A stretch of DNA of 25,645 bases from a virus (IMGVR_UViG_3300037584_006092:1-25645), one strand, 5' to 3'; numbered from the stretch's first letter, positions 5,984 to 24,447 are shown. A program made the numbers and translations. The notes: generated from the letters alone by a model not told the origin.

Positions 5984-6001
5984 AGATCAAGGACTCGTAA
6001 A

Positions 6002-6232
6002 GTGGTAGAGGTAATTGCAGCAGTAGGTGGGGCATTATTAACAGCTTGTTTTGTATCTGTAGGATCAATATCTTACAGAGGAAGACAATCAAGAGATGAT
6101 TTGGTGCGAAATACCACAGCTATAGAATTACTAACAACAAAAATAGATGATATGCATGACGATATGAAAGAAGTATTTCATAGATTAAAAGAAGTAGAAC
6201 TTGCTGTTGCAGAAATAAAGCCAAGAAGATAG
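6002..6232 (+). CDS. Small membrane-anchored coiled-coil protein, holin-like candidate
   Basis: A GTG start at 6002 is preferred over a TTG at 5969, because a TATAAT box occupies 5972-5977 and AAGGA lies 8 nt before the GTG. The 76-aa product has an N-terminal hydrophobic span (~3-22, EVIAAVGGALLTACFVSVGS), then a basic patch and a long amphipathic helix with heptad spacing (LTTKIDDMHDDMKEVFHRLK, VELAVAEI). One N-terminal membrane segment plus a cytoplasmic or periplasmic coiled coil is compatible with a pinholin, spanin partner or anchor, but no family is recognised. The stop codon is embedded in an 11-bp perfect inverted repeat. Confidence 0.6.
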   Translation: MVEVIAAVGGALLTACFVSVGSISYRGRQSRDDLVRNTTAIELLTTKIDDMHDDMKEVFHRLKEVELAVAEIKPRR

Positions 6233-6264
6233 CCTCTTCCTTTATGACTAGAAGAAGAGGCTAT
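6229..6264 (+). other. 11-bp perfect hairpin at the end of the 6002 gene
   Basis: ATAGCCTCTTC (6229-6239) and its exact complement GAAGAGGCTAT (6254-6264) flank a 14-nt loop. The left arm contains the TAG stop of the upstream gene. No T-run follows, so it is not a standard intrinsic terminator; it may protect the mRNA 3' end or weaken readthrough. Confidence 0.6.
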
Positions 6265-6317
6265 AGCTCTAGATGGATAGATTGAGCTACTATAAGACTA
6301 GCAATCTACTAATTACA

Positions 6318-6479
6318 ATGCTAAAAATTATTGAGCCTATACTTTTTGCTTTCCTTCGTGGGAAAGCAATAAAAAAACTCGCACTTGATATAGTACGAGC
6401 TATGGTTAAGAAAACTGATAACACAGTAGATGATCGTCTTTGTGATGTCTTAGAAAAAGCTTTGTTTCCAGGTAGATAA
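6318..6479 (+). CDS. Small helical phage protein of unknown function
   Basis: From ATG 6318 the product is 53 aa (MLKIIEPILFAFLRGK, then KKLALDIVRAMVKKTDNTVD, DRLCDVLEKAL). An in-frame ATG at 6273 would add 15 less typical residues and neither start has a good Shine-Dalgarno sequence. The N-terminal ~14 residues are hydrophobic and the rest is an amphipathic basic helix. The KKTDNTVDDRL stretch is a pattern I recall from small phage proteins encoded near lysis or tail genes, sometimes annotated as holin-like; this is a memory and not a proven match. The last codons (Gly-Arg-stop) lie in an 18-bp palindrome shared with the convergent gene. Confidence 0.55.
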   Translation: MLKIIEPILFAFLRGKAIKKLALDIVRAMVKKTDNTVDDRLCDVLEKALFPGR

Positions 6480-6488
6480 TTATCTACC
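6471..6488. terminator. 18-bp perfect palindrome spanning two convergent stop codons
   Basis: GGTAGATAATTATCTACC is self-complementary over its full length. Its centre lies between the TAA of the rightward gene (6477-6479) and the TAA of the leftward 25-aa gene (6480-6482). A T-rich tract follows on the + strand (6494-6514), so rightward termination is plausible. Confidence 0.5.
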
Positions 6489-6557
6489 TAATTTAACTTT
6501 TACTTTTTTTGTTTTCTTCTTTTTTGAAGATCCGTAGCCTCTCGTTTGTGTATGCAT
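6480..6557 (-). CDS. Very small basic protein (25 aa)
   Basis: ATG at 6557 opens a 25-codon frame: MHTQTRGYGSS, a Lys/Thr run (KKKKTKKVKVK), then LGR and stop. The high positive charge would suit nucleic-acid binding, and short RGYG...KKK proteins are known to me from phage genomes, but at this length chance is a real alternative. It lies alone between two rightward genes and ends at a palindrome shared with the convergent gene, which gives it a defined 3' boundary. No Shine-Dalgarno sequence is seen. Confidence 0.35.
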   Translation of the reverse strand: MHTQTRGYGSSKKKKTKKVKVKLGR

Positions 6558-6613
6558 TTTTATAGTTAAATAACTGCTTCTATATTAAAATAAAAAACCA
6601 TACAAATCTACAG

Positions 6614-6811
6614 ATGCATCGATTGAATTTTGTAAAATGTCCTAACTGTAATACTCTTTCAAGACAAAAAGTAATTCAATCTGATAGAAACTCGGAGCAT
6701 ATAATTATTAGAAGAAGATTATGTTTTAAGTGTGAACATATTTGGCATACAATACAATATCCAGAGCAAACTATAGAAGATAGAAAAGCACAGTATATCC
6801 GTAATAACTAG
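6614..6811 (+). CDS. Zinc-ribbon protein, NrdR/Ogr-like ribbon
   Basis: 65 aa with two CxxC pairs: CPNC at residues 9-12 and CFKC at 37-40, separated by a basic stretch (SDRNSEHIIIRRRL). The order C-P-x-C, ~24 residues with R-R-R, then C-x-x-C followed by a Trp resembles the zinc ribbon of NrdR and other small regulators. The C-terminal tail is polar. It lacks the ATP-cone of NrdR, so only the ribbon type can be claimed. It is separated by 44 bp from the next gene, which has its own strong ribosome-binding site. Role inferred: small transcriptional or nucleic-acid-binding regulator; the target is unknown. Confidence 0.6.
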   Translation: MHRLNFVKCPNCNTLSRQKVIQSDRNSEHIIIRRRLCFKCEHIWHTIQYPEQTIEDRKAQYIRNN

Positions 6812-6855
6812 ACTTTTTGAAATATTTAGTTATTGTTAGGGTGGAGGACACTCTA

Positions 6856-7173
6856 ATGAAAATTGAAATGCCTTGGTCAGGCTGGTTTAACAAACAAGCA
6901 AAGAAAAGACGTAAAGTTGAGCCTTGGGTATTAGCAAACATTTCTCTTGAAGAAGAATTTGAAGTAGAAATGATATTAAGGGAAGTTTTTAATTATATTG
7001 ATCCTGATGATATTCCAGATCTTATAAGTGCTTTTGCAATGGAAAATTTTAGATTAACTAAAATAATTAATCAAGCTGGGGATCATATAGATAAAATTTA
7101 TGATGAGTATGATAAATCTATATCTTCTTCTCCCAAAAATAAGCACAATCCTTCGCCCAAACTCCCCCACTAG
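6856..7173 (+). CDS. Unknown acidic protein (105 aa)
   Basis: ATG 6856 is preferred over a TTG at 6817 because a GGAGG ribosome-binding site (6843-6847) lies 8 nt before it. The protein starts MKIEMPWSGWFNKQAKKRRK and then becomes acidic and helical (LEEEFEVEMILREVFNYIDP, DDIPDLISAFAMENFRL). It ends in a polar Ser/Pro tail. No catalytic motif, signal or membrane span is seen. Its 3' end overlaps the convergent gene at 7118 by 56 nt, where the C-terminal low-complexity tail is encoded. No family recognised. Confidence 0.6.
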   Translation: MKIEMPWSGWFNKQAKKRRKVEPWVLANISLEEEFEVEMILREVFNYIDPDDIPDLISAFAMENFRLTKIINQAGDHIDKIYDEYDKSISSSPKNKHNPSPKLPH

Positions 7174-7432
7174 CTTTTCCTTCTGGCATTCCTAAACCGC
7201 ATTCTGCTTTTATAACAAGATGATGAATACAATCAATACATAAAGGATGATCTCTGCTCATACATCTAGCATCTGCATATAAATATTCTGCTTCAATAAG
7301 AGCAGGTTCTAATTCTTCTGCTTGTAAAGGTAAATTAAGTTTTCCTTTTTTTGTTTTTATCTTTACTCGCCATTTACTTGGTTCTTCTTCATATAGAACC
7401 ATGCGACCTGCATGGTATCTAAGAGAAGCCAT
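7118..7432 (-). CDS. Cys-rich putative zinc-binding protein
   Basis: 104 aa. The N-terminal ~50 residues are mixed strand and helix (MVLYEEEPSKWRVKIKTKKG). The C-terminal half holds an ordered cysteine set, DHPLCIDCIHH, ECGLGMPEG and KDCAYFWE. I recall a CxxC...CxLGxPEx...CxxF module in cyanobacterial and cyanophage proteins, which supports a cyanobacterial host; I cannot verify the match. Metal binding is inferred from four regularly spaced Cys. The ATG overlaps the upstream stop (TAATG), so it belongs to the leftward run of small genes starting at 8932. It overlaps the convergent gene's 3' end by 56 nt. Confidence 0.65.
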   Translation of the reverse strand: MASLRYHAGRMVLYEEEPSKWRVKIKTKKGKLNLPLQAEELEPALIEAEYLYADARCMSRDHPLCIDCIHHLVIKAECGLGMPEGKASGGVWAKDCAYFWEKKI

Positions 7433-7702
7433 TATCTACTCCAAATTTTATCCTCATATCCATTTGGTGGTGTGCTGATCCAGTATCTAGTACCATTTAT
7501 AACCCTAAAAACATGAACTCCGCAACATACAATCTGTCCTAATTCTTGTTGCTGCTTTTTCTGCTTCTGATTTTGTCTCATATAATCTACCGACATAAAT
7601 TTTTTTTCCATCAAAATACCAAGGTCTAAATTTTGTTGTTAGTCCATAATATATCGGGTTAACTCCAATTTGTCCTTTGCAAACTAAATATGTGATATAC
7701 AA
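7432..7702 (-). pseudogene. Small gene apparently split by a frameshift (or two overlapping ORFs)
   Basis: Two frames overlap by 110 nt. The upstream one (7702-7505, TTG start three nt after the preceding stop) reads YLVCKGQIGVNPIYYG, FDGKKIYVGRLYETKSEAEK, then an odd Cys/Ser-rich end. The downstream one (7614-7432) has a Gln/Lys-rich front but a convincing back (CCGVHVFRVINGTRYWISTP, NGYEDKIW). Joining the good half of each near 7540-7555 gives one ~90-aa protein with alternating strands. The simplest reading is a single gene with a one-base frameshift or sequencing error; two genuinely overlapping genes is the alternative. The downstream stop is coupled to the next ATG (TAATG at 7432). Function unknown. 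Confidence 0.45.
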
Positions 7703-7705
7703 GAT

Positions 7706-7789
7706 TTATTTTTTTTCCCAACACTTGATTAATATTTTTAATTCTTTTATACGTTTTTGTGCAGCCTTAATTTTTTGTTCTGTTGTCAT
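7706..7789 (-). CDS. Tiny coupled helical ORF (27 aa)
   Basis: The ATG overlaps the stop of the 91-aa gene upstream (TAATG at 7787-7791) and the TAA at 7706-7708 lies 3 nt before the TTG of the following gene. The product, MTTEQKIKAAQKRIKELKIL plus seven more residues, is a single basic amphipathic helix with heptad-like Ile/Leu spacing. Its only support is perfect tiling between two coupled neighbours. It could act as a small helical partner or exist only to carry ribosomes into the next gene. Confidence 0.4.
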   Translation of the reverse strand: MTTEQKIKAAQKRIKELKILIKCWEKK

Positions 7790-8064
7790 TACTCCATTCT
7801 CATCTCTTTCATTAAATCTTTAATCTGTTGATCTGTATATTTATAAATATCAATCAATTTATTATAAGCAAAATATTTTTCTTTTCCTTTTTTTGAAAAT
7901 AACATTGCGATACATTCAGCTTCAAAACTTTTTGTAATCCATTTAGGTTTTACTTCAGTTGGAAATTCTTCATCAGGTGTCCAATATTCAAAAACAATTT
8001 TGCTTTTCATATCCCAATAAACTTGCCCTGCATATGGATTTTTTGGAAAATTTATAATGTTCAT
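7789..8064 (-). CDS. Unknown small phage protein (91 aa)
   Basis: Start at ATG 8064 is chosen over ATG 8079 because it makes an ATGA overlap with the upstream stop and has GGGAG 8 nt ahead. The product begins MNIINFPKNPYAGQVY, with aromatic, strand-rich sequence (SKIVFEYWTPDEEF, VKPKWITKSFEAECIAMLFS), and ends in a charged helix (DQQIKDLMKEM). The NFP.NP..GQ.Y opening recalls a short beta-hairpin motif of phage tail and neck proteins (usually NFPxNPxxGQxY), which is weak evidence for a structural link. It sits in a chain of small unknown genes. Confidence 0.55.
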   Translation of the reverse strand: MNIINFPKNPYAGQVYWDMKSKIVFEYWTPDEEFPTEVKPKWITKSFEAECIAMLFSKKGKEKYFAYNKLIDIYKYTDQQIKDLMKEMRME

Positions 8065-8264
8065 GAAATAATCTCCCAATCTATAATTTTGTCATTTTTT
8101 TTATAAATAAAATCTGTAGCCATTTTGAATTTTTCAATATCAACTTTTTGATTTTTCTTTCCATTACTTAATTTTTTACCCTCTCCGTTTCCAATCCAAC
8201 AACACCCTGCTGTAATAACTTCCATTAAATTATTACGCTCTTCAAGAGTACAAATAATTTTCAT
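8061..8264 (-). CDS. Unknown small protein (67 aa)
   Basis: ATG overlaps the upstream gene's stop by 4 nt (8261-8264) and its own stop forms an ATGA overlap with the next gene, so it is translationally coupled on both sides. The sequence starts MKIICTLEERNNLMEVITAG with a Cys-Cys pair (CCWIGNGEG), then a Lys/Asn-rich half ending KKNDKIIDWEIIS. No signal, membrane span or known motif is seen. The coupling and sensible composition argue that it is real. I do not recognise a family. Confidence 0.55.
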   Translation of the reverse strand: MKIICTLEERNNLMEVITAGCCWIGNGEGKKLSNGKKNQKVDIEKFKMATDFIYKKNDKIIDWEIIS

Positions 8265-8932: not shown

Positions 8933-8967
8933 AAAAAAAAGTTGGGGACTAACAGATGCGTTTGCTT

Positions 8968-9030: not shown

Positions 9031-9160
9031 CCTCGATGGGAACTCGTGTCATTTTTGTAAAAAAGTGCATTTAGGTCATACAGAGTCATTAACCTCAAGA
9101 TTACAAAGGAGCAGCAAATTAACTAGCCCATGAATACCACTAGCGATCATGCCCCGTAAG

Positions 9161-9535
9161 TTAAAAGTCGATTTCGTCTTCGCCTAAAGGTGCATCTACA
9201 GGACTTGTTGATGTTGTACCAGACTCATATATCTCCTTTTGTTTTTTATAGTCTGTCTCAATCTTAAGTGCAAGGAATTTTTTACCATTTGGATTATTTT
9301 TGGGTGTATTTGTGTAACCCGATGCTCTTAATGGGATAAAATCTCCTACATAACCATCGTTATCGGGTTTTGCGTTTTTTAAGTAAGAAATAAATTCTTC
9401 AATCTGACCTACAGGTACTTTTACAGTTCCCTTGTAGTCTGGATATTTTTTAGAAGCATCGAACTTCTCTTTATAAAAAGACTTGTTGTCTTGATCTGTT
9501 TGTCTAAAAACAGCTAATTGTAATTCAAGTGTCAT
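9161..9535 (-). CDS. Putative single-stranded DNA-binding protein with SSB-type acidic tail
   Basis: 124 aa, last of the leftward recombination set. The body is strand-rich (TLELQLAVFRQTD, GTVKVPVGQIEEFISYL, GDFIPLRASGYTN, KKFLALKIETDY), compatible with an OB-type fold but without a motif I can name. It is followed by a Ser/Thr/Pro linker and the tip GEDEIDF. Acidic tips ending in Phe are the partner-docking tails of bacterial and phage SSBs (E. coli ends DDDIPF). The location directly after RecT-like and HTH genes fits an ssDNA-binding role. The ATG makes an ATGA overlap with the upstream gene. It could instead be another phage ssDNA-binding family; the tail and context carry the call. Confidence 0.6.
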   Translation of the reverse strand: MTLELQLAVFRQTDQDNKSFYKEKFDASKKYPDYKGTVKVPVGQIEEFISYLKNAKPDNDGYVGDFIPLRASGYTNTPKNNPNGKKFLALKIETDYKKQKEIYESGTTSTSPVDAPLGEDEIDF

Positions 9536-9735
9536 TGTTTTAATTCAGAATTTTGACGTTTGGCTAGTTCTAGCTCCTCTATCTCAGCCACCTTATAGAG
9601 GATCTTTCCATTAATCGAATAGAAAGAAGGGGGTTTGCCCTGCCTTCGCCATCGTTCAACAGTGTCGGTATGGACTCGCCATCGTTCAGCAAGTTCCATA
9701 GTTGTAATAAATTCATCTTTAGAATCCAAGGTCAT
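9532..9735 (-). CDS. Small HTH DNA-binding protein, excisionase/AlpA-MerR type
   Basis: The start is the ATG at 9735: AGGAGG lies 6 nt ahead of it, whereas an upstream ATG abuts that site and longer forms run into the RecT-like gene. The 67-aa product has a winged-helix HTH of the MerR/excisionase class: FITTMELAERWRVHTDTVER, then WRRQGKPPSF with GKILYKVAEIEELE. The wing pattern (W-R-x-x-G-x-P-P-x-F, then Y-x-x-x-E-I) is typical. Possible roles are an excisionase, a transcriptional switch or a small repressor. It overlaps the end of the RecT-like gene by 17 nt and the SSB-like gene by 4 nt, so it is embedded in the recombination operon. The strand-biased motif GACTCGC occurs in it at 9673. 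Confidence 0.7.
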   Translation of the reverse strand: MTLDSKDEFITTMELAERWRVHTDTVERWRRQGKPPSFYSINGKILYKVAEIEELELAKRQNSELKQ

Positions 9736-10351
9736 TTTCATCCTCCTGTTTTGATTCGACTTGCACCGAAGACTCGGATACATTTATTGGCTCTGGTTCT
9801 ATATCTATCACTTCTTCACTAGTTTGCACACCTAATAACAAGTCGGGAATATATTGCCTACCAAAAAATGTTGCGGCTCGGTTTCTCAACATTAACTCAG
9901 GCATACTCGAATATTTAGGATTTTTAGTCCAACCCTCTTGTCTTGCCATCTTCATAGATACTGCTGTTCCTTTAACTTGTTTTTTATCTTCAAGCCTGGT
10001 GGCAACACATTGCACTTCTAATGTCTCGCCTTGACCTTTTACTAAATAATCAAAGTTAGTAAATCTACCGCATCCAATAATATTAGATGTAATAAATTGT
10101 GCTGACCATGTTGGTTTGCCGTGTATAACATTTAAATTTTGCATAACAGTTAATGGACTAAGATTCATTCTTTTACTCATTTCAAGTGCAACCAAACAAT
10201 TTGGTAAACCTTGTTGACCTTGATATTGTGTTGGCACTAGTTGTGATTGACATAAACTTTTTGCCTGTCTTTGTGCAAACTCAAAACTATCTGTGGTTTG
10301 GTATATAGAAGACTCGCTTTCTAAAGATGTTTTTGTAATTTCTGTTGTCAT
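9719..10351 (-). CDS. recT: RecT-like single-strand annealing protein
   Basis: 210 aa. The core matches the phage RecT/Bet superfamily as I know it: NCLVALEMSKRMNLSPLTVM (~51-70) and GKPTWSAQFITSNI (~78-91). After a strand region, ATRLEDKKQVKGTAVSMKMA comes next, followed by PELMLRNRAATFFGRQYIPD (~150-169) and LLGV.TSEE. The C-terminus is an acidic linker ending EDENDLGF, an SSB-like tip. The family binds ssDNA and anneals complementary strands during phage recombination, usually with a 5'-3' exonuclease partner, here encoded two genes upstream. The start makes an ATGA overlap with the 46-aa gene. Assignment to the general annealase group is solid; the exact subfamily is not. Confidence 0.82.
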   Translation of the reverse strand: MTTEITKTSLESESSIYQTTDSFEFAQRQAKSLCQSQLVPTQYQGQQGLPNCLVALEMSKRMNLSPLTVMQNLNVIHGKPTWSAQFITSNIIGCGRFTNFDYLVKGQGETLEVQCVATRLEDKKQVKGTAVSMKMARQEGWTKNPKYSSMPELMLRNRAATFFGRQYIPDLLLGVQTSEEVIDIEPEPINVSESSVQVESKQEDENDLGF

Positions 10352-11621: not shown

Positions 11622-13349
11622 ATGCAGTTAAGAAGTTATCAAATCAAAGCAATAGATAGTCTTAGATATTCTTTTAATACAAAGGGTAAAAAATCTCCTT
11701 TGTTAGTAATGCCAACTGGAGCTGGTAAGACAGTTGTTTTTGCTGCAATATCTAAAGCAATATCACAAAACGAAAAAAATGTATTAATTCTTGTTCATCG
11801 AAGAGAACTGATAGATCAAGCCTCAAAAAAATTAAAAAATATTGGAGTTAATCATGGTGTTATTGCTGCAAAATATAAAGAGTCAACTAACAATATACAA
11901 ATAGCATCAGTACAAACTTTAGTAAGAAGACTTGTAAAAAATACTTTTAATCCTAACTACATTATTATTGATGAAGCACATCACGCAGCAGCTGGAAGTT
12001 GGACAAAGATAATAAATCATTTTAAAGATGCATATAAAATTGGATGTACCGCAACACCAATAAGACTTGATGGCAGAGGACTAGCTGACTATTTCGATGA
12101 TTTAGTAAAAGGCCCTGGAGTGGCAAAATTAATTGATGAAAAATATCTTGCTCCTTATAAAGTATTTGCACCTCCACTAAAAGTAAATTTAGATAAAGTA
12201 AAAACTTTAGGTGGAGATTATCAGAAAAAAGAATTAGAAAAACAAATTGATTCTGCTGACATTATTGGCGATGCAGTTCAACAATATAAAAAACACGCTG
12301 ATGGTTTACCTGCAATTGCTTTTTGTATTTCTATAAAACACGCAACTGATGTTTGTAATAAATTTAAAAATGCAGGTTATAAAGCTGCTATAGTTCATGG
12401 CGAGATGAAGGTCGATGATCGTGATGAGGCGATTAAAGGACTTGGAAATGGAAAAATACAAATTCTTACATCTGTTGATGTCATATCAGAAGGTACAGAT
12501 GTTCCAGATGTATCAGCAGCAATTCTCCTTAGACCAACAAAATCTGAAGGGTTATATTTACAACAAGTAGGAAGAGTTTTAAGACCAAAACCTGATAAAA
12601 CAGCCATAATTTTAGATCATGTTAATAGCACCAGAACACATGGATTTGTAGATGATAAAAGAGAATGGTCATTGCATTCTCAAAAAAAGAAAAAGAAAAA
12701 AGGAGAACTTGCACCTCATGTAGAAACTTGCAAAAAATGTTTTGCTACATATAAACCAACACCAGTTTGTCCTGTTTGTGGATATCAAGCAGAAAATAGA
12801 GAAAGATTTATTAAGCAAGAAGAAGGCGAATTAGAAGAACTTAAGAGAAAAGAACAGCAAGAAACAGAAAAGAAGCAACAAAAACTATTAATAGCAACCG
12901 CAAAAACCTTAGAAGAATTAGAAATGGTTGCAAAAATATTAGGTTATAAAAAAGGATGGGCTTATCGGGTATTTGAGTCTAGAAAAAATAAAGGTGTTCC
13001 AAGATATAGGGCTGCACAATTTAACAACGGCACACGAACTGCATCTTATTTAGGTTTAGATCAGAAAGAAACTATTGCTAAATTATTTTGTTTAAATACT
13101 AAAGCATTTAATAAATTTAAATTTTCCGAAACAGTAAAAGATGGAAAATATACTGCTGATAAAATTTTTAAGTTATTTACAATAAATTCTTCTGATAAAT
13201 GGTTTTTACATAAATCACATAAAAAATGGTTTGCAGAAATGTATAAATATCCGTGGGATAGAGCTTTTATAAATAACTATGTTAAGACAGTTAAAGAACG
13301 AAAAATATTCATAGATCCTAATGATTTCACAGGTCCAATTACTCCATGA
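11622..13349 (+). CDS. DEAD/DEAH-box SF2 DNA helicase with zinc finger
   Basis: 575 aa with a complete SF2 motor: Q-motif-like LRSYQIKAI, Walker A MPTGAGKT (30-37), VHRREL (58-63), DEAH (117-120), CTATP (142-146), VHGEM (258-262), TDVPD (292-296) and arginine finger QQVGRVLRP (314-322). A Lys run precedes a four-Cys zinc knuckle (C370, C373, C383, C386). A coiled Glu/Lys segment comes next, and then a ~170-residue C-terminal domain beginning LEELEMVAKILGYKKGWAYR, seen in phage helicases of this type. Likely roles are branched-DNA remodelling or unwinding in phage replication and recombination. It is the first gene of the rightward operon, with a start near a weak promoter. Its stop overlaps the methyltransferase ATG by 4 nt. 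Confidence 0.88.
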   Translation: MQLRSYQIKAIDSLRYSFNTKGKKSPLLVMPTGAGKTVVFAAISKAISQNEKNVLILVHRRELIDQASKKLKNIGVNHGVIAAKYKESTNNIQIASVQTLVRRLVKNTFNPNYIIIDEAHHAAAGSWTKIINHFKDAYKIGCTATPIRLDGRGLADYFDDLVKGPGVAKLIDEKYLAPYKVFAPPLKVNLDKVKTLGGDYQKKELEKQIDSADIIGDAVQQYKKHADGLPAIAFCISIKHATDVCNKFKNAGYKAAIVHGEMKVDDRDEAIKGLGNGKIQILTSVDVISEGTDVPDVSAAILLRPTKSEGLYLQQVGRVLRPKPDKTAIILDHVNSTRTHGFVDDKREWSLHSQKKKKKKGELAPHVETCKKCFATYKPTPVCPVCGYQAENRERFIKQEEGELEELKRKEQQETEKKQQKLLIATAKTLEELEMVAKILGYKKGWAYRVFESRKNKGVPRYRAAQFNNGTRTASYLGLDQKETIAKLFCLNTKAFNKFKFSETVKDGKYTADKIFKLFTINSSDKWFLHKSHKKWFAEMYKYPWDRAFINNYVKTVKERKIFIDPNDFTGPITP

Positions 13350-14590
13350 CTTTAAAATTACTAGATACATTTGCAGGGATTGGCGGTTTTAGTTACGCTG
13401 CGGAAAAACTTGTAGGTGGATTTCAAACAGTACAGTTCATAGAAATTGATCCGTACTGTCAACAAGTACTAAACAAAAACTTTCCTAACATTCCTATTCA
13501 CGATGACATCACAACCTATAGAGCCGAGCCATATTCAGCAGACATTATCACTGGGGGATTTCCATGCCAAGACATATCAACCGCAGGTAGAAAACAAGGC
13601 ATCACAGAGACTTCAAGGTCTGGTCTCTGGTTTCAACTCATCAGAACCATACGCATGGTACGACCAAAATACTTCATCTTGGAAAACGTATCAGCGATCC
13701 TTAATAACGGATTGGACATCGTTCTCGGAGACATTTTCAAGGCAGGGTACGATGCAGAATGGTGTTGTATTCCAAGCAGCTTTGTTGGAGCTTGCCATCA
13801 AAGAGATCGATTCTGGCTCATCGGATTCTCTCCCGACACCTACAAGAGAAGCTGCTCATCACAGGAACAATGTTCCACCTTCAATAGGAAAGACGAGAGG
13901 TTACGATCTAACAATGAAAATATGCGAAGAACAAGAGAAAGCGGAAATGTTACCGACTCCTACAGTATGCAACGACTCGATGTATTACGACAAGAGTCCG
14001 AACAAAGACAAGAGACACAGCAAGGGACTAGCAACAGAAATAATAGATCGGGAGATGTTGCCGACTCCGACAACAATGGATCATTTAGATCAGAGGAGTC
14101 CAGAAGCTTTAAAAAAACAGATGGAAGGTCCGAGAAAAGGGAGGACATCTCTATCCAATCTGAGGGAAGCAGTAAATCCCAAGACTCAGGAAATATTCAA
14201 CTCTCTTTTACCTACACCGAGAGCAAGCGAACCTGGAAGAACGAATCTAGGTTATGGGGACAATCTCAAGGAGGGGATATGCAAACAGACAGGGATTCCA
14301 ACAAAAAAATATCCGTTGCTTCCAACCCCGACAGCCACCGATTACAAGGGGAGGTCGGGTCAAGGATATATAGACCGACATGGAAAACACAGAATATCAG
14401 ACGTATTAACCCAAACTGGAGACAATATGTATCTAAACCCACGATTCGTAGAGGAGATGATGGGCTATCCAATAGATTGGACGCAAGTCAAAGAGTCCAA
14501 AGATTGAAGCAGCTGGGAAATTCAGTAGTTCCACAAGTTGCAGCTATACCCTTGCAAAGGGTTATACAATTGGAGCGTGAGCAACAATGA
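13346..14590 (+). CDS. dcm: C5-cytosine DNA methyltransferase
   Basis: 414 aa. Motif I DTFAGIGGF (7-15), FIEID (motif II), motif IV GGFPCQDIS with catalytic Cys74, motif VI ENV (113-115) and motif VIII QRDRFW (152-157) are intact. Residues ~165-380 form an unusually long Ser/Arg/Asn-rich, low-complexity target-recognition region with VTDS, VADSD and NPDS repeats. The C-terminal LRR-like closing motifs (TIRRGDDGLSNRLDA, LGNSVVPQ 390-397) return at the end. It transfers a methyl group from S-adenosylmethionine to cytosine C5, typically to protect phage DNA or mark it. Base composition in the long region differs from neighbours (more G+C, unusual codons), explained by a second gene in the +1 frame. 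It is coupled to the helicase (ATGA). Confidence 0.88.
   Translation: MTLKLLDTFAGIGGFSYAAEKLVGGFQTVQFIEIDPYCQQVLNKNFPNIPIHDDITTYRAEPYSADIITGGFPCQDISTAGRKQGITETSRSGLWFQLIRTIRMVRPKYFILENVSAILNNGLDIVLGDIFKAGYDAEWCCIPSSFVGACHQRDRFWLIGFSPDTYKRSCSSQEQCSTFNRKDERLRSNNENMRRTRESGNVTDSYSMQRLDVLRQESEQRQETQQGTSNRNNRSGDVADSDNNGSFRSEESRSFKKTDGRSEKREDISIQSEGSSKSQDSGNIQLSFTYTESKRTWKNESRLWGQSQGGDMQTDRDSNKKISVASNPDSHRLQGEVGSRIYRPTWKTQNIRRINPNWRQYVSKPTIRRGDDGLSNRLDASQRVQRLKQLGNSVVPQVAAIPLQRVIQLEREQQ
13503..14507 (+). CDS. Overprinted +1-frame protein inside the methyltransferase gene
   Basis: A 334-aa frame with no stop lies entirely within the methyltransferase gene. Its sequence is not random: GDFHAKTYQPQ, SSWKT (58-62) followed by TFSRQGTMQNGVVFQ, five LPTP repeats (first at 110-113), and LNPRFVEEMMGYPIDWT (311-327). 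I recognise this order (SSWKT.., SRSGTM.NG, LPTPTA.D repeats, LNP.FVE.LMG.P..WT) from many phage proteins usually annotated as hypothetical or methyltransferase-related. Each block lies opposite a methyltransferase motif: GDFHAKTYQPQ/GGFPCQDISTAG, SSWKT/ILENV, LPTPT/VADSD, and LNPRFVE..MGYP/TIRRGDDGLSN. Either both frames are expressed, or the family partly consists of shadow translations. No ribosome-binding site is evident at ATG 13503. Function unknown. Confidence 0.5.
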   Translation: MTSQPIEPSHIQQTLSLGDFHAKTYQPQVENKASQRLQGLVSGFNSSEPYAWYDQNTSSWKTYQRSLITDWTSFSETFSRQGTMQNGVVFQAALLELAIKEIDSGSSDSLPTPTREAAHHRNNVPPSIGKTRGYDLTMKICEEQEKAEMLPTPTVCNDSMYYDKSPNKDKRHSKGLATEIIDREMLPTPTTMDHLDQRSPEALKKQMEGPRKGRTSLSNLREAVNPKTQEIFNSLLPTPRASEPGRTNLGYGDNLKEGICKQTGIPTKKYPLLPTPTATDYKGRSGQGYIDRHGKHRISDVLTQTGDNMYLNPRFVEEMMGYPIDWTQVKESKD

Positions 14591-14949: not shown

Positions 14950-17091
14950 ATGTCTGACTTAAAACTTGATAAGTTGCAATGGAGAACTTTCCTCAAAATT
15001 CTTGGCAAAGATAAAAATACAGTAAGATTACGTTCTTTTTATCCCAAAGGACATCCCCTTAAAAATACTGATCGTGGTAAAAAATCAAATGCAGATATTG
15101 ATTGGATTACACAATGTCAGATAGAAGGTAGAGGTGTTTATGTTGTAGTCAATGATGGTGGAGATACAGATAGTGAAATAACAGGTTGCCGAGCATTGTT
15201 TTGTGAATGGGACGATAGGCCAAAATCTGAACAGGTTGATTTATGGAGAACTTTAGGTCTAAAAGAACCAACTCTTCAAATAGATACTGGAGGTAAATCA
15301 ATTCATAATTATTGGGTTTTGAAAAAGACAATAGATCCTAAGACTTGGAGGCCTATTCAAGAAAGATTATTAGATTATGCAGATGCTGACAGGGCTTTAA
15401 AAAATCCATCACGAGTAATGCGTTTACCTGGCACATACCATATGGGAGATGATGGGACGCAAAGAGAGATGACTAAGATCATTAACTCATGTGATCAAAA
15501 ATATACTGTTAAAGATATAGAAGATTGTTTGCCCGATAAAGTACAAACAGAAAAAATAAAAAAAAGTAAACAATTTAAGGAATATAGAAAAGGGACTTTT
15601 GAGGATATTAAAGAAGCATTAAATTGCATTCCTCCTCGTGTACCTGGAAGTGGTACTTATGATTATTATCGGAATTTATTATGGGGACTTATAAAAGCTT
15701 GTAATGATGCGAACAGATCTTCGAGCGATGCAATATCTTTGATGCAACAACATTCTCCTCAATGGGGTGGTATTGAACAGATTGCAAAGTCTGGAGGTTC
15801 ACAAATTGAAGCAGGGACTTTTTGGTATCTCGCACGAGAATCTGGATATAATCCACCAAAACTTGTACAGATTCAAAGCATAGAAAATCCTGATCAACTT
15901 GTAGTTTTAGAAAAACAACCATTACAAAAAATAGAAGCTCATGAATTAATGCAAGAACTTAGGACAAAAAATAAAGGAGATAATCCTTTTAGATATAATA
16001 TTTTTACTCAACAAATAGAAGAAGGTGGAGAAGTATGTGAGGGAGAAAATGCTTTAGAAAGATATTATTTAAAACTTGCAGACAAAGGACGCAAAATTCC
16101 AAAAGATGTTGCATATGATTGTGTTGTTCAATCTGCTAGAGAAAATGAATATGATCCTGTCAAAGAATATTTAGATCATGTATATAACACAGCAGATTTA
16201 ACATTTATAGATCAGTTAGCTACAACATATTTAAGACCCGAAGATAAAGCAATTGCTCCTACGATTTACGATAAAATGCTTAAATGTACTTTAATTGCAG
16301 CAGTTAAGCGTGTATATAAACCTGGCTGTAAGTTTGATAATTGTTTTGTAATAGTAGGAAAACAAGGAGCAAAAAAATCTACATTTTTCTCAACTTTAGG
16401 AGGTGCTTTCTTTTCTGATGCACTTAAAGATATTTCTAATAAAGACTCGTTGATGGTACTTCACCGCAGCTGGATAATGGAGTACAGCGAATTGGATTTC
16501 TTGACAACTCGAAAACAAGCTGGAGAAGTAAAAGCATTTTTATCTCAATCAACTGATATATTTAGAGTTCCTTATGGCAAATCAACAGAAGTTTTTAAAA
16601 GAAGAGGAATAATTGTAGGAACCAGTAATAAAACAGATGGTTTGTTAATTGATGATTCTGGGAATCGTAGGTTTTGGATTTGCAGTACGACAAGAGATAG
16701 TGTTAATCAAATAGATTGTGATGGATTATTGAGAGAGAGGGACTCGATTTGGGCAAGTGTCGTAAGTGCTTATAAAAATTTTGAACCTTGTTGTTTAGAT
16801 AGCGAATCAGAGGCAATGGTTAATAAAGAAAATGTTCAATATTTAATAGATAGTCCTTGGAAATCTGTTATAGAAAGTTATATAAATGAACCAAAAAATA
16901 GGGGTCGTGAGTTAACAACAGAGGTCGTACTTACAGAAGCAATTGAAAAGCCAATTGAACGACAAACCAGAGGAGATCAAATGCAAATTGCATCAATCTT
17001 AAGGGACTTGGGACTCGTTAAAAAACGCAGAGGAGATAGATCGAGTCGCAAATGGGTCTACATTCGAGACACGGACACCATTTCTGTATAA
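14950..17091 (+). CDS. Primase-helicase: AEP-like primase fused to VapE-type ATPase
   Basis: 713 aa. The N-terminal ~200 residues resemble the RepB-type archaeo-eukaryotic primase fold: acidic motif LFCEWDD (83-89), SIHNYWVL (117-124), RVMRLPGTYH (155-164). A linker domain follows (~210-330). The C-terminal half is a VapE/DUF5906-like SF3-related ATPase: FRYNIFTQQIEEGG, ALERYYL.LAD, YLRPEDKAIAPTIYDKML, Walker A GKQGAKKST (470-478), SWIMEYSELD (Walker B region), RVPYGKST and GTSNKTDGLL..NRRFWI. A fully basic C-terminus ends the protein. Together these make a single-protein replication initiator that primes and unwinds. Such proteins are common in phages, satellites and cyanobacterial islands. 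An iteron block follows directly downstream. Confidence 0.85.
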   Translation: MSDLKLDKLQWRTFLKILGKDKNTVRLRSFYPKGHPLKNTDRGKKSNADIDWITQCQIEGRGVYVVVNDGGDTDSEITGCRALFCEWDDRPKSEQVDLWRTLGLKEPTLQIDTGGKSIHNYWVLKKTIDPKTWRPIQERLLDYADADRALKNPSRVMRLPGTYHMGDDGTQREMTKIINSCDQKYTVKDIEDCLPDKVQTEKIKKSKQFKEYRKGTFEDIKEALNCIPPRVPGSGTYDYYRNLLWGLIKACNDANRSSSDAISLMQQHSPQWGGIEQIAKSGGSQIEAGTFWYLARESGYNPPKLVQIQSIENPDQLVVLEKQPLQKIEAHELMQELRTKNKGDNPFRYNIFTQQIEEGGEVCEGENALERYYLKLADKGRKIPKDVAYDCVVQSARENEYDPVKEYLDHVYNTADLTFIDQLATTYLRPEDKAIAPTIYDKMLKCTLIAAVKRVYKPGCKFDNCFVIVGKQGAKKSTFFSTLGGAFFSDALKDISNKDSLMVLHRSWIMEYSELDFLTTRKQAGEVKAFLSQSTDIFRVPYGKSTEVFKRRGIIVGTSNKTDGLLIDDSGNRRFWICSTTRDSVNQIDCDGLLRERDSIWASVVSAYKNFEPCCLDSESEAMVNKENVQYLIDSPWKSVIESYINEPKNRGRELTTEVVLTEAIEKPIERQTRGDQMQIASILRDLGLVKKRRGDRSSRKWVYIRDTDTISV

Positions 17092-17101
17092 ATTGTTAAG
17101 A

Positions 17102-18147: not shown

Positions 18148-18924
18148 GTGACTAACGTAGACGATCTAGCAAAGAAAATACAATTATTAGATGAAGCTTA
18201 TAGAGCTGGTAATCCTTTAGTGTCTGATTTAGAGTTTGATAAATTAAGGGCAGAATTAGTAGATATAGAACCAAATCATCCTTTATTACTTTTCCCTGGA
18301 GGTGGCAATAATTTATTAAGTTTAGGAAACTATTCTTTTATAGATTGGTATAAAGACTTGCCACTTAATACTGATGTAATCGTACAACCTAAAATAGATG
18401 GTTGTGCTGTAGCACTAAGATATAGATTTGGAGAATTAGTTAAAGCATGGAACAGAAAAGGTAAAGATATTACATATGCAATGAGAAAAGTTACTAATGT
18501 CCCACAAAAAATAAATCATTTAGGTTGCATAGATATAAGAGGAGAATTATATGGAACAACAGGACATTTAAAAAGTCAGAGACTTGCAGCAGGCCACATG
18601 AGAAAAAAAGCACCCGATGGAGAAGGACTCGCATTCTGTGCTTTTGAGATTATGGGAAAAGATGATGGATATGAGATTGACACATTACAGCAATTATTAT
18701 GTTGGAAGTTTCATATCTGTGGTCATATACATATAAAAAATAATGTTATACAAAGAGTAAAAATTTTACATGAAGATTGGCAAGATAGTTTAGTTTTTTC
18801 TAGATACCCAACAGATGGATTAGTAGTAAAAGTAAACAGCCATAAACTACAAGCAGAATTAGGTAGTGGTAGTCATGCACCAAGATGGGCATTAGCTGTT
18901 AAAGATTGGAAATATAGTGATTAA
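18148..18924 (+). CDS. NAD+-dependent DNA ligase-like protein, adenylation domain only
   Basis: 258 aa against the ~650-700 usual for LigA. The front has an Ia-like segment (LLDEAYRAGNPLVSDLEFDK, LRAEL), then nucleotidyltransferase motifs: PKIDG (Lys82 would be adenylated), DIRGELYG (Glu133), FCAFEIMG, TDGLVVKVN (223-230) and PRWALAVKDWKY (245-256). The OB fold, zinc finger, helix-hairpin-helix and BRCT domains are all missing, so it either works with partners or only adenylates. GTG start at 18148 overlaps the TAG of a 14-codon ORF (18104-18148), suggesting coupling through a leader peptide. Catalytic residues are intact, so this is not obviously a dead fragment. It could be a stand-alone phage ligase with minimal domains, or an RNA- or nick-directed adenylyltransferase. 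Confidence 0.75.
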   Translation: MTNVDDLAKKIQLLDEAYRAGNPLVSDLEFDKLRAELVDIEPNHPLLLFPGGGNNLLSLGNYSFIDWYKDLPLNTDVIVQPKIDGCAVALRYRFGELVKAWNRKGKDITYAMRKVTNVPQKINHLGCIDIRGELYGTTGHLKSQRLAAGHMRKKAPDGEGLAFCAFEIMGKDDGYEIDTLQQLLCWKFHICGHIHIKNNVIQRVKILHEDWQDSLVFSRYPTDGLVVKVNSHKLQAELGSGSHAPRWALAVKDWKYSD

Positions 18925-20323: not shown

Positions 20324-20343
20324 AGACTCGGAGGACTCGCAGT

Positions 20344-20553
20344 ATGCAAAAAAGACAGTTTAACATTCGTATTTCTGACGAGTGTTATGAGCAGCTGGAA
20401 ACATTAACAAAAAAATCATCAACTAATATTTGTCCCACTTGTGGAAATGAAACAAATATTGAGTTTTCTAAATTTAAGGATATGAAACCGACAGGACTCG
20501 CAACCTTACTATTAGAAGAAGCAGTTGCAAAATTAACAAAACCAGAATCATAG
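20344..20553 (+). CDS. Ribbon-helix-helix-like regulator with inserted CxxC
   Basis: 69 aa. MQKRQFNIRISDECYEQLET, LTKKSS is the ribbon and first helix. The loop between the helices is enlarged and contains CPTCGN. The second helix is MKPTGLATLLLEEAVAKL. A two-cysteine insert could bind metal across the dimer or form a disulfide switch. The start has GGAGG nine nt ahead, and the spacer includes GACTCGG and GGACTCGC. The gene itself contains GGACTCGCAA as Gly-Leu-Ala codons (20494). It ends the rightward operon ahead of a strong terminator. DNA binding is inferred; the target may be its own operon. Confidence 0.65.
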   Translation: MQKRQFNIRISDECYEQLETLTKKSSTNICPTCGNETNIEFSKFKDMKPTGLATLLLEEAVAKLTKPES

Positions 20554-20578
20554 ACTCCCCGAACTAGAAGACTCGCAA

Positions 20579-20605
20579 AGGACTCGCAAGAGTCCTATTT
20601 TTTTT
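20579..20605 (+). terminator. Intrinsic terminator AGGACTC-GCAA-GAGTCCT plus T8
   Basis: A perfect 7-bp stem (20579-20585 with 20590-20596) closes a GCAA tetraloop of the stable GNRA type, followed by a T8 run (20598-20605). The stem is built from the window-wide GGACTCGCAA motif plus its complement. It ends the rightward operon and overlaps the stop of the leftward gene at 20595. Confidence 0.85.
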
Positions 20606-20946: not shown

Positions 20947-20948
20947 TG

Positions 20949-21347: not shown

Positions 21348-21685
21348 TAATTTTCCTCCGTATTAAAAATTTCGCCATTGCACCATTCGTACAATTCTTT
21401 TTCTATCTCATCAGGTTTTTCTTCTAACCAATCTTGATTGCCTAGCAATAAATAATATTTGCTATTTAATGTGATTTCATAAAAACCACCATGCTTAAAG
21501 ACTCGCACACATATTGTTGTATGTTGATCTATTTTGTCTTCCGAATCGGCTAACATTATATCTTCTCCACCATTTATGCATTCTTTTGGAATACCATGTT
21601 CTTCATGGATTTTTTTGTAGTTTTGTTTGATATAAGGAATATCCTCATAATCTTTTTTCCATTCTTCAAATGTGATTTTTTTCAT
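21347..21685 (-). CDS. Unknown protein, paralogue of the 22474-23013 gene
   Basis: 112 aa. It shares with the 179-aa protein at 22474-23013 an ordered set of features: F..W.KD...IPY at the start, H-G-I, then VFKHGGFYE (the other reads IFRQGGHIE), and a C-terminal LYEWCNGEIFN (the other reads LYDWANGELFN). The shared core covers nearly all of this protein. Neither matches a family I know. A GACTCGC copy on the + strand sits inside it at 21500, in a different codon position from the copy in its paralogue. It is coupled to the next gene at 21347. Confidence 0.6.
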   Translation of the reverse strand: MKKITFEEWKKDYEDIPYIKQNYKKIHEEHGIPKECINGGEDIMLADSEDKIDQHTTICVRVFKHGGFYEITLNSKYYLLLGNQDWLEEKPDEIEKELYEWCNGEIFNTEEN

Positions 21686-21687
21686 AA

Positions 21688-21942
21688 TTAATGCACCATA
21701 GATAAGTAATAACCATCTGCTTTGATGTAGTAATATTCATCCCAAGCATCTTGGTCATCTTTTTTTACTGAACTAAAACCGCAACCGCAGTAATAAATAA
21801 TTGAAGCTTCAAGAACTTTTAAATCTTTTTTTAATATCCTTGCTTGAATTGGATCTTTCCAATCTCCACTAGGAAATTTAATTAAATCAAAAGCACTATC
21901 TAATTGTCTTTTTGTGAAGCCGTCAAAAACTTTTTTTGTCAT
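21688..21942 (-). CDS. Unknown small protein with Cys-x-Cys motif (84 aa)
   Basis: MTKKVFDGFTKRQLDSAFDL, KFPSGDWKDPIQARILKKDL, EASIIYYCGCGFSSVKKD, and a Tyr/Asp-rich end. CGCG could bind metal but no second pair is visible, so zinc ribbon is not supported. It starts at an ATGA overlap with the 180-aa gene (21939-21942) and stops two bases before the next gene, tiling the leftward cluster. Confidence 0.55.
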   Translation of the reverse strand: MTKKVFDGFTKRQLDSAFDLIKFPSGDWKDPIQARILKKDLKVLEASIIYYCGCGFSSVKKDDQDAWDEYYYIKADGYYLSMVH

Positions 21943-22481
21943 GGCATAACCTCCGTTTGTAAATCCATGTATCTTTGAGCATTTCTGATTTCTGATAATT
22001 CAGATTCAGTACTTTCTTTTAACTCTTCATCTGATTCATAATCTTTATCAAGTTTTCTGTCCTCGATAAGACTATATTGATTACTAAGCATTTGATTTAT
22101 ATATTCAATTGCTAGATCATTTTTATCTTTAGGAAGCATTTTTTCGCCACCTAATTTTTTTAATAAATCAGTTGCAACTTTTACAGCATCATCAAGGGAC
22201 TCGCACTCTTTATTAAATTCAAAGTCAGAGACTTGATCGCTGTGATAGACATAGAATTTTGCAAATTCTTCATTATCAGGACGATTATTTTCTGAGTTAG
22301 GAATCTGAATATGTATCCATCTATTCTCTTGATATTGCAAAGATACATTAGCCATACAATCATTACAGTAACTATCGCCATACCAATTAGAAGAAGACTC
22401 GCTAAGTTTTTCTAACAAGTCTTTCATATATGGTTCTGCAATTTTGGGGTTGTGATGTTCCCATATTTTAAATTTAAGCAT
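21939..22481 (-). CDS. Unknown acidic protein (180 aa)
   Basis: AGGAGG stands 9 nt before ATG 22481. Sequence: MLKFKIWEHHNPKIAEPYMK, SSSNWYGDSYCNDCMANVSL with a CxxC, a strand-rich centre (NRWIHIQIPNSENN, FAKFYVYHSDQVSDFEF), then acidic helices to the end (DKDYESDEELKESTESELSE). Its overall acidity and absence of a membrane span suggest a soluble cytosolic protein, perhaps a protein-interaction partner or a DNA-mimic type; this is not shown. It overlaps its neighbours by 8 and 4 nt. GACTCGC copies lie at 22198 and 22396 on the opposite strand. Confidence 0.55.
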   Translation of the reverse strand: MLKFKIWEHHNPKIAEPYMKDLLEKLSESSSNWYGDSYCNDCMANVSLQYQENRWIHIQIPNSENNRPDNEEFAKFYVYHSDQVSDFEFNKECESLDDAVKVATDLLKKLGGEKMLPKDKNDLAIEYINQMLSNQYSLIEDRKLDKDYESDEELKESTESELSEIRNAQRYMDLQTEVMP

Positions 22482-23013
22482 TTAGGGAGTCCTCCTTATT
22501 AAAAGCATCATCTACTAAAGTCCACATTCTTTCATAAGAACGTAATGTGTCTCTTTGAGTATCTGTTAAATGTTTTCCATTAATTGGTTCAAAACAATAA
22601 AGTAAATCTTCGATTGACATTTGTGGAAGATTTTCTTTTTTTAACCATGCAGTATAAGAATTAGACAAGATAGCAAATTCTTGTAAATCCCAAGTGCATC
22701 CATTTTCACTTTTATAACTGCCAAATTTGAAACCATTTTGTAAATTAAATAGTTCGCCATTAGCCCAATCATATAAAGCACGTTTTACAACATTTAAATT
22801 TATGTCGTAAATATCTGATCTATCTAAAGTGACATGATAAGTGTCATCTTGAAATTGTTCGATGTGACCACCTTGTCTGAAAATTAAGAGACTCGCTGTA
22901 TCTTCGTGAACATCACAAATACCATGTTTGTCTATGACACTTTCAAGTTCGGGGAGGTAAGGGATTTTAAAAAGATCTTTTTCCCAAGATTCGTAAGAAA
23001 CAAATTTTGACAT
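22474..23013 (-). CDS. Unknown protein, longer paralogue of 21347-21685
   Basis: 179 aa. The first ~95 residues match the 112-aa paralogue in order (SYESWEKDLFKIPYLPE, KHGI, LIFRQGGHIE, LYDWANGELFN). An extra ~80-residue C-terminal helical part follows (FAILSNSYTAWLKKENLPQM, LLYCFEPINGKHLT). GGAGG is about 8 nt ahead of the ATG. Divergence suggests an old duplication. The conserved aromatic/Gly set (IPY, GG.E, LY.W.NGE.FN) probably defines a small uncharacterised domain. Function unknown. Confidence 0.6.
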   Translation of the reverse strand: MSKFVSYESWEKDLFKIPYLPELESVIDKHGICDVHEDTASLLIFRQGGHIEQFQDDTYHVTLDRSDIYDINLNVVKRALYDWANGELFNLQNGFKFGSYKSENGCTWDLQEFAILSNSYTAWLKKENLPQMSIEDLLYCFEPINGKHLTDTQRDTLRSYERMWTLVDDAFNKEDSLNA

Positions 23014-23014
23014 T

Positions 23015-23452
23015 TTATTTACCTCCGAAAGTTTTTACTCTAATTTCTTCTTCACTTATATAAATATGTAAATCTAATCCATGAACTATGTCTTTAATCA
23101 TAGTTGCATTTAATGGAATGTTTTCTGCGAAGTCATCTCTGCTAATTTCATATGATCTATCCCATACTATTTCTTTATCTAATGTATTAGGATTAAATCC
23201 TCTTGCATAAACAACAAAATCTTTATCTTTTTTTAAAAATTCTGTATCTTTTTTATAGCAATTCATTAAATAGATACCTTCATCTTTAACCAACCATAAA
23301 CTTTTATCAGAAGTATATTTCTGTTCATATGCTGTTTTGAACTTAGTAGCATTTAGAGTCCTAAAAGCTAGATCTCTAAGTTTTTTTGTATTTGGGAAAT
23401 ACAAGTGCTTCATTAATGAAACTTCATGTAATTCTTTTAGTGAGTTTGTCAT
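23015..23452 (-). CDS. Unknown phage/plasmid-type protein, possibly DUF3085-like
   Basis: 145 aa, first gene of the leftward cluster, 26 nt downstream of a -10 box at 23478-23483. The centre SLWLVKDEGIYLMNCYKKDT resembles a motif (LWLVKDxGVYLM) I associate with DUF3085 proteins of plasmids and phages, though only weakly. Flanking parts are helical at the front and strand-rich at the back (LDLHIYISEEEIRVKTFGGK). No catalytic residues are recognised. It has no signal or membrane span and ends one base before the next gene. Confidence 0.6.
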   Translation of the reverse strand: MTNSLKELHEVSLMKHLYFPNTKKLRDLAFRTLNATKFKTAYEQKYTSDKSLWLVKDEGIYLMNCYKKDTEFLKKDKDFVVYARGFNPNTLDKEIVWDRSYEISRDDFAENIPLNATMIKDIVHGLDLHIYISEEEIRVKTFGGK

Positions 23453-23477
23453 AAATAGAATGTGTAACTACTCCCTA

Positions 23478-23546
23478 ATTATAGCCTAATTTCTAGCAAA
23501 AAAGTAGGAAATATTGCTATAATAACAATAGGTTCAGGTTCCTGAA
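23478..23546. promoter_or_regulatory. Divergent promoters with palindromic operator
   Basis: The leftward -10 TATAAT is at 23483-23478 and the rightward TTGCTATAAT at 23514-23523. Just downstream of the rightward box lies a perfect 14-bp palindrome TTCAGG-TT-CCTGAA (23533-23546), positioned near the start of transcription. The 11-mer ATAGGTTCAGG that opens it recurs at 25313-25323, suggesting a shared regulator. Confidence 0.6.
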
Positions 23547-23571
23547 TCTATGTAAATTTCTTTTATAAATT

Positions 23572-23919
23572 ATGAAAACTATTCAAGAAACCAAAACTTT
23601 TGAAGTTGGACAAATTGCTTTTTGTAATGGCGGTTGCACAATGCAACTTCCAACTTTTTATAAAGTTGTAAGAAGAACAGACAAAACTGTTTGGTTACAA
23701 GAGATCGCTGACCAATTAATTGAACATGATGGTTTTGGTCAAAAGGGTCGCAAAATTCCTGTTGATATTCCAAGAGGTGGTGTTTTCAATAAGCGTGTTA
23801 AAAATTGGAAAGATGCAAAATATGGTGGTGGCAAAGACCAAGAATTTGCTTACATAAAATATTGGGGTATTGTTGAACCTTGGGATGGAACTGCAAAATA
23901 CTATGATTCTATGGATTAA
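23572..23919 (+). CDS. Unknown Gly/Lys-rich protein (115 aa)
   Basis: MKTIQETKTFEVGQIAFCNG, GCTMQLPTFYKVVRRTDKTV, WLQEIADQLIEHDGFGQKGR, then GGVFNKRVKNWKDAKYGGGK and an acidic aromatic end. It starts a three-gene rightward operon from the palindrome-controlled promoter. The front is strand-rich and the whole is basic. I do not recognise a family; the FYKVVRRTDKTVWLQEI segment looks like a small beta-barrel such as an SH3-like fold. An AAGGAGG spans its stop and serves the next gene. Confidence 0.6.
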   Translation: MKTIQETKTFEVGQIAFCNGGCTMQLPTFYKVVRRTDKTVWLQEIADQLIEHDGFGQKGRKIPVDIPRGGVFNKRVKNWKDAKYGGGKDQEFAYIKYWGIVEPWDGTAKYYDSMD

Positions 23920-23932
23920 GGAGGTATTAAAA

Positions 23933-24097
23933 ATGTTTGATGCACTAGGAGAAATTCTTACTCAAAAAGAAATTAAATTTCTTGCAGAAGTTTTAACCGA
24001 AGCTTGGTTTGCACTTGATGTAAGAAATATGGATACAGAAAAAAGAAAAATGTATTCATCAATTAAATCTAAAATTAGGAGGTTAAACAATGGATGA
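23933..24097 (+). CDS. Unknown small helical protein (54 aa)
   Basis: ATG 23933 has AAGGAGG (23918-23924) nine nt ahead, which decides the start over longer upstream candidates. The product MFDALGEILTQKEIKFLAEV, LTEAWFALDVRNMDTEKRK, then a basic end (SSIKSKIRRLNNG) is a single helical bundle. Its stop overlaps the ATG of the next gene by 8 nt, with AGGAGG inside the coding region serving that gene. Function unknown. Confidence 0.6.
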   Translation: MFDALGEILTQKEIKFLAEVLTEAWFALDVRNMDTEKRKMYSSIKSKIRRLNNG

Positions 24098-24263
24098 AAA
24101 ATTAGAAGTTACTTGTACATCAAAATGTACTTATACAATTTCTTTTGAAACCAAGGAAGAAATGGAAGAATGGTTAGAAGACAGAAGCACTAATGATATG
24201 CGATTAGAATATGAGACAGAAGATTGGTCAGATGGTCATAAAGAAGAATATGAACATCGCTAA
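24090..24263 (+). CDS. Unknown small acidic protein (57 aa)
   Basis: ATG 24090 has AGGAGG (24077-24082) about 7 nt ahead. MDEKLEVTCTSKCTYTISFE, TKEEMEEWLEDRSTNDMRLE, YETEDWSDGHKEEYEHR: strand-rich front with two Cys, then an acidic helix. It is the last gene before the 24-bp repeat array, whose first unit lies 33 bp downstream of the stop and can fold as a terminator. No family recognised. The ribosome-binding site and overlap support it. Confidence 0.6.
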   Translation: MDEKLEVTCTSKCTYTISFETKEEMEEWLEDRSTNDMRLEYETEDWSDGHKEEYEHR

Positions 24264-24296
24264 TATATAATCAAGTTTTTAAAATTTTTTAAAAAA

Positions 24297-24447
24297 GGGA
24301 CTCGCAAGGGTTCTTTTTTTTTGGCGAGGGACTCGCAAACATTTTTTCTGAGGGACTCGCAAACATTTTTTTTTAGGGACTCGCAAGCTTTTTTTTTGAG
24401 GGACTCGCTGACTTTTTCACAGAGGGACTCGCAAGCTTTTTTTCTCA
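24297..24447 (+). repeat. Six-copy GGGACTCGC array, five copies at exact 24-bp period
   Basis: GGGACTCGC starts at 24297, 24328, 24352, 24376, 24400 and 24424, so the last five are exactly 24 bp apart. Each is followed by two to four bases, then a T-run, except copy 5 which has T5. Copy 1 can fold GGACTC-GCAA-GGGTTC plus T9, terminator-like with two G-U pairs. GCGAG-GGA-CTCGC around copy 2 is a second hairpin. The unit is the concentrated form of a motif scattered through the window. Confidence 0.9.

Follow-up and report, generated by a model that had tools for sequence, protein, structure and literature searches.

Genome organization of the phage and its relatives

The window analysed here is the entire 25,645-base IMG/VR virus record IMGVR_UViG_3300037584_006092, which is classed as linear and is probably a fragment of a genome. 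Its early region encodes a VapE-domain primase, a helicase, a C5-methyltransferase, a VRR nuclease and a ligase domain, as well as RecT-like and exonuclease VIII-like proteins. Throughout this region the short word GACTCG recurs almost exclusively on one strand, and a small gene linked to it, 20344-20553, encodes a candidate DNA-binding protein that we refer to as the reader.

Relatives were collected through similarity to the primase (VapE), which led to longer contigs. The 55.5-kb relative G006 runs from terminase genes through late genes and early genes to a tandem array of the motif, followed by about 3 kb of small open reading frames (ORFs) and the contig end. Its terminase large subunit is of the lambda gpA type, the protein in the small-subunit position matches DUF1441 below the cut-off, and a search for Pfam Terminase_6N gave no match. 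The same boundary is spanned by contigs G009 and G015, in which the array precedes the terminase genes. From this order we infer a lambda-like cos genome.

The carriers are uncultured marine phages, and the phage collection searched contained neither a close cultured relative nor any close DNA relative; the phage S-LBS1 has no such motif. A picocyanobacterial host is suggested by similarity to cyanophage proteins and by a Prochlorococcus single-cell assembly that contains a primase fragment of 50% identity; the terminase is closest to those of Roseobacter phages, and no tRNA genes were found that could hint at a host.

GACTCG is enriched on one strand of the early region

GACTCG occurs 26 times on the + strand of the window and twice on the - strand (17042 and 17300), while the strand split of GACTCGC is 17:0. 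Our recount thus agrees with the counts of an initial annotation of this sequence, whose list of + strand positions was also right apart from one entry, 13975, which should be 13974. Per strand, 1.1 copies of GACTCG are expected under an order-1 model and 1.4 under a locally trained order-2 model. Against both backgrounds only the + strand is enriched, as had been claimed: the word is about 20-fold over-represented there and near chance on the - strand (2 versus about 1). It is by a wide margin the most enriched hexamer in the window (z = 18.6), whereas in 300 simulated windows the top z for any hexamer was 6.8 and no window held more than 6 copies of GACTCG. The strand split is itself significant (p = 3e-6, or 7e-5 if the array counts as one), though the asymmetry score alone, observed at 4.5, falls within the simulated range (maximum 6.7), so that the case rests on enrichment and asymmetry jointly.

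The variant GACTTGC is likewise one-sided (41:4, pooled over five genomes), and GACTYGC is preferentially preceded by purines and followed by A. Together, these preferences give a full motif of approximately RRGACTYGCA, broader than the word initially described. Sites that lie close together are mostly spaced by 8, 9, 16 or 24 bp. The polarity of the motif is independent of gene direction and does not flip within the zone, which is closed by the array (Table 1).

A similar pattern is found in the relatives. In G001-G008, G011 and G019, GACTCG occurs 6-26 times on the forward strand and 0-3 times on the reverse. In G006 it is absent from both strands of the first 38 kb, where the late genes lie, and all 20 copies fall on one strand of the last 17 kb, with the tandem array about 3 kb from the right contig end. 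Array periods are 24 bp in the window, G002 and G006, 16 bp in G004, and 8 or 9 bp in G011, G015 and G019, and their usual starting point is the stop codon of a rightward gene. The initial annotation had taken a lack of the motif at non-homologous positions in relatives as grounds for refutation; its reading withstands this check, as copies in G011 and G019 lie in genes that have no counterpart in the window.

Table 1. Motif sites, arrays and linked features in the window and in the sister contig G009.
Feature	Position	Strand	Remarks
Zone of 26 + strand GACTCG	5992..24432	+	From counts and simulations; equals the right 17 kb of the 55.5-kb relative G006
GACTCGC inside leftward helix-turn-helix gene 9532-9783	9673..9679	+	Matching place occupied in relatives
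GACTCGC inside leftward RecT-like gene 9719-10351	10311..10317	+	GACTCG kept in 6/7 relatives
GACTCG inside rightward VapE/PrimPol gene 14950-17091	16444..16449	+	Kept in 6/6 alignable relatives
GACTCG inside VapE gene	17012..17017	+	Kept in 6/6 alignable relatives
GACTCGC inside rightward ligase-domain gene	18626..18632	+	GACTCG kept in 5/6 alignable relatives
Site pair, 9 bp apart, in 20-nucleotide gap directly before candidate reader start codon	20325..20340	+	Same pair in G001 and G003-G006; in G002 the first copy is GACTTG
Candidate reader gene	20344..20553	+	69-aa ribbon-helix-helix-like protein with CPTCG knuckle
Two sites spaced by 11 bp, of which the second is the 5' arm of a terminator-like hairpin	20570..20605	+	GGACTC-GCAA-GAGTCC plus T run; -11.7 kcal/mol, z -2.1
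Four GACTCGC (21500, 22198, 22396, 22890), antisense in leftward genes	21500..22896	+	Kept in all relatives alignable there (2 to 4 each)
Array of six sites, five within a 24-bp tandem repeat	24299..24432	+	First copy forms a terminator-like hairpin
GTTCTTGC in L017/G009	6455, 9805, 9828, 10251, 12324, 18928, 18967, 23142, 23175, 23206, 23278		Window orientation

The motif is under selection and is not a by-product of coding

The initial annotation had argued that the copies lie in genes of both orientations and that protein coding does not explain them, and both statements hold. The 14 coding copies on the + strand, split evenly (7 each) between rightward and leftward genes, contrast with a mean of 2.1 after synonymous codon shuffling within genes, while coding copies on the - strand are at the shuffled level (1 versus 0.96). 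An origin of the motif in codon or protein composition is thereby ruled out. The spread of a duplicated element was also rejected, as the flanks of single copies are unrelated and only the arrays resemble tandem duplications.

Conservation provides a second line of evidence. The coding copies are kept in relatives in 58 of 72 comparisons, whereas adjacent hexamers of matching phase predict 31.7; the counts are not independent because the compared sequences are related. In each of G004 and G005, 11 of 13 motif copies survive, compared with about 30% of matched CG-containing hexamers. Conservation above matched controls indicates selection on the word itself. The oriented motif is real, under selection and phage-specific, and the general proposal of the initial annotation, that of an oriented functional signal, is supported by its occurrence in relatives, non-homologous positions included, its conservation within genes and its gene-independent polarity.

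A small gene co-occurs with the motif

Among the early ORFs of the window, only 20344-20553, which the initial annotation overlooked, is present in 13 of the 13 motif-bearing relatives tested and missing from G009; the test covered contigs that include the reader locus, which set aside G008, G010 and G016. Motif and reader gene thus co-occur across the relatives. A search with the reader protein family alone recovered two further contigs. One of them, L156, carries GACTCG at 15:0 with a five-copy 8-bp array, and the other, L159, at 5:0 across the available locus, with three copies directly after the reader gene. Sites are also concentrated around the gene, with 69 within 600 bp of it in 14 related genomes where 19 are expected. 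The C5-methyltransferase, considered as an alternative reader, is missing from the motif-bearing G011 and was rejected.

The reader begins with a putative strand in which Q5 and N7 are invariant and position 9 is R or K, followed by two helices with the CPTCG knuckle between them. In a structure model (predicted local distance difference test score of 81), the helices are laid out as expected of a ribbon-helix-helix fold, and in an alignment with P22 Arc the Q-x-N-x-R/K of the reader is in register with QFNLR of Arc, whose base contacts are Gln9, Asn11 and Arg13 of the N-terminal strand (PMC12645479). The reader would resemble Arc and Mnt of P22 in carrying Q, N and R at DNA-contact positions of an Arc-like strand, and differs from them in its CPTCG insert, in the lack of a significant fold match, and in having tens of dispersed sites rather than one operator. 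Taken together, the model and the alignment make the protein a candidate for a ribbon-helix-helix-like fold. Searches of 50,697 phage records and of 400 Cyanobiaceae genomes yielded no real relative of the reader, the latter giving one weak match, from the knuckle onward only, in a 481-aa frame.

A sister lineage carries a different oriented motif

G009 is the only near-complete relative without the motif, and it lacks the reader gene as well. In the VapE tree it stands beside G011 and G019, inside the motif-bearing lineages, at a support (92/89) that is not decisive. It has a one-strand motif of its own, GTTCTTGC, at 11:0, with 9 of the 11 copies between genes; most of the intergenic copies have a second conserved block, approximately TGGT, 7 bases on, and four copies form an array where the early region ends. 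No protein of G009 emerged as a reader of GTTCTTGC. This lineage would represent a natural swap of motif and reader, and the change of motif resembles that in cluster A mycobacteriophages, where the stoperator sequence changes with the repressor (PMC6550527).

A proposed model of reader-bound, oriented boxes

We propose that a small phage DNA-binding protein, most likely the product of 20344-20553, recognises GACTYGC(A) as its box; binding by this particular protein appears to us slightly more probable than not. Dimers of the reader would sit side by side on the boxes of the tandem arrays and singly on scattered boxes. MetJ of E. coli, which has a ribbon-helix-helix fold, binds tandem 8-bp boxes, as cited in PMC3274233; the MetJ boxes are palindromic and lie at promoters, whereas those described here are asymmetric and extend over 18 kb. 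Because all boxes face one way, the bound reader would form a polar barrier in the path of something that travels along the DNA. An orientation that ignores gene direction points to such a barrier or to a signal for a moving machine, since a simple operator has no need of it.

The machine blocked would, as a first choice, be a rightward RNA polymerase. This is favored by the placement of arrays after rightward genes and terminators, and by the site pair before the reader start codon; at two sites the motif supplies the 5' arm of a terminator-like hairpin whose loop is GCAA. The outcome would be a stoperator-like brake together with self-control of the reader gene. In mycobacteriophage L5, reversal of a site abolishes repression (PMC9283540), which sets a precedent for polar blocking by a bound protein. 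We regard this explanation as a whole, reader-bound boxes acting in a stoperator-like manner, as favored at about even chances, with the block of transcription a more tentative component.

Chi and stoperators are among the few known dispersed, oriented DNA codes of phages, and the GACTYGC code would add one that is strongly selected, phage-specific and equipped with a small candidate reader. Cluster A mycobacteriophages such as L5 and Bxb1 carry 20-30 short asymmetric stoperators per genome, mainly in one orientation (PMC6550527, PMC9283540). The system described here is similar in its many short asymmetric sites, mainly in one orientation (26:2 in the window, 20:0 in G006), in having a site before the reader gene, and in sequence shifts between lineages. 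It differs in that its orientation is genome-wide, many sites lie within genes, and some form tandem arrays; in addition, the stoperator repressor is a monomer with helix-turn-helix and stoperator domains, while the candidate reader is a 69-aa ribbon-helix-helix-like protein.

Several observations weigh against our explanation. Mycobacteriophage stoperators follow transcription and the GACTCGC sites do not, with most of the scattered sites sitting within genes. The one-strand bias is weaker in G013, G014 and G020; in G015 it is confined to the arrays, falling to 6:7 once clusters are collapsed, and outside arrays the distant relatives G013 and G015 show weak bias. G014 has no site within 600 bp of the reader gene, and the joint absence of gene and motif is seen in one lineage only, G009. 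For the fold, Foldseek and VIA-align searches with two models returned no ribbon-helix-helix structure match, and Pfam RHH_3 matches to the reader are below the cut-off.

A further and rather unlikely reading is that the boxes form a genome-polar address system. The reader at its oriented boxes would mark the cos-proximal end, and an exonuclease, a packaging or entry motor, or RNA polymerase would be stopped or guided one way. In effect this would be a protein-dependent Chi or KOPS (FtsK-orienting polar sequence), with a different word in the sister lineage G009.

Alternative explanations

The strongest rival, which we nonetheless consider rather unlikely, is a Chi-like signal for a host enzyme of the RecBCD or AddAB type. 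Chi is active in one orientation relative to the end at which the enzyme enters. Here an enzyme that starts from the cos-proximal right end and moves left would meet the array and the scattered + strand copies in their active orientation and switch from degradation to recombination, and a single orientation regardless of gene direction would come naturally. Lambdoid Chi sites lie between replication genes and terminase/cos, and are placed towards cos in phages that have a recombinase and lack a RecBCD inhibitor (PMC3784561). The short oriented word described here is similarly concentrated, with cos inferred from the order of gpA-type terminase, late genes, early genes with the motif, array and contig end, and the phage encodes RecT and an exonuclease VIII-like protein. 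Thus position and polarity fit the Chi kind of signal named in the initial annotation, but enrichment in a host was not found. Across 151 Cyanobiaceae genomes GACTCGC showed no clear enrichment, and in nearly all of them it was not above its reversed control, the true host being unproven; in the Prochlorococcus single-cell assembly with the related primase there were 18 copies versus 17 of the control. Tandem arrays of 8-bp period and a link with a phage gene would not be expected of Chi, its sequence is another, and the motif of G009 is different, partly bipartite and mostly between genes.

The KOPS kind, also named in the initial annotation, is disfavored. There is no polarity flip within the zone and no copy elsewhere in G006, on a contig that may lack its ends and in which the origin was not located, and the lack of clear GACTCGC enrichment in the 151 Cyanobiaceae genomes speaks against it too.

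That the VapE-type primase-polymerase recognises the motif on its template, as NrS-1 PrimPol does TTTGGTTA, is improbable. NrS-1-like PrimPol enzymes can recognise a short one-strand site (PMC8718748), which the present motif resembles, and the VapE-domain protein of the phage has matches among phage primase/polymerases. However, the motif does not track the primase, since G009 has the enzyme, which is sister to the one in G011, but not the motif; and priming should be needed genome-wide, yet 38 kb of G006, two thirds of it, are free of copies.

We give a similarly low rating to a signal that gives polarity to the packaging motor or to DNA entry, in which the array near the right end would be decisive. 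By analogy with lambda, the end carrying the zone would be the last to be packaged and the first to enter the cell; site density increases toward that end, and the terminase is of the gpA type. In G006, however, about 3 kb separate the array from the contig end, and in G009 the array precedes the terminase small-subunit gene by about 4.3 kb, which is not the layout of the cos elements of lambda. The cos site was not located, there is no shared link to packaging genes beyond genes that G009 also has, and no packaging role, as initially suggested, could be demonstrated.

Restriction escape of the phage T7 type, in which one orientation is tolerated, would account for a word almost missing from one strand but is highly improbable and refuted as a full explanation, and Type III restriction strand bias is likewise rejected: the - strand is not below expectation and the + strand is enriched, a pattern that avoidance cannot generate.

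Additional observations

Other words show strand patterns in some of the relatives. TGCGGGT is strongly enriched on both strands in L156 and G011, and in G011 its polarity flips, with copies on the + strand up to 18.9 kb and on the - strand from 21.5 kb. TCCCCGA is found on one strand only in L159 (7:0) and in contig G013 (L098; 6:0) and is possibly another oriented word.

Within the window, two long ORFs, 13346-14590 and 13503-14507, overlap by 1 kb in different frames; the former matches a methyltransferase family, while the latter has no such match and contains repeated LPTPT stretches that look protein-like. For the 258-aa protein encoded at 18148-18924, the only match is to the NAD-dependent DNA ligase adenylation domain. 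To the right of the array, 24685-25357 is very AT-rich and contains several tandem repeats, and may be an origin or end region.

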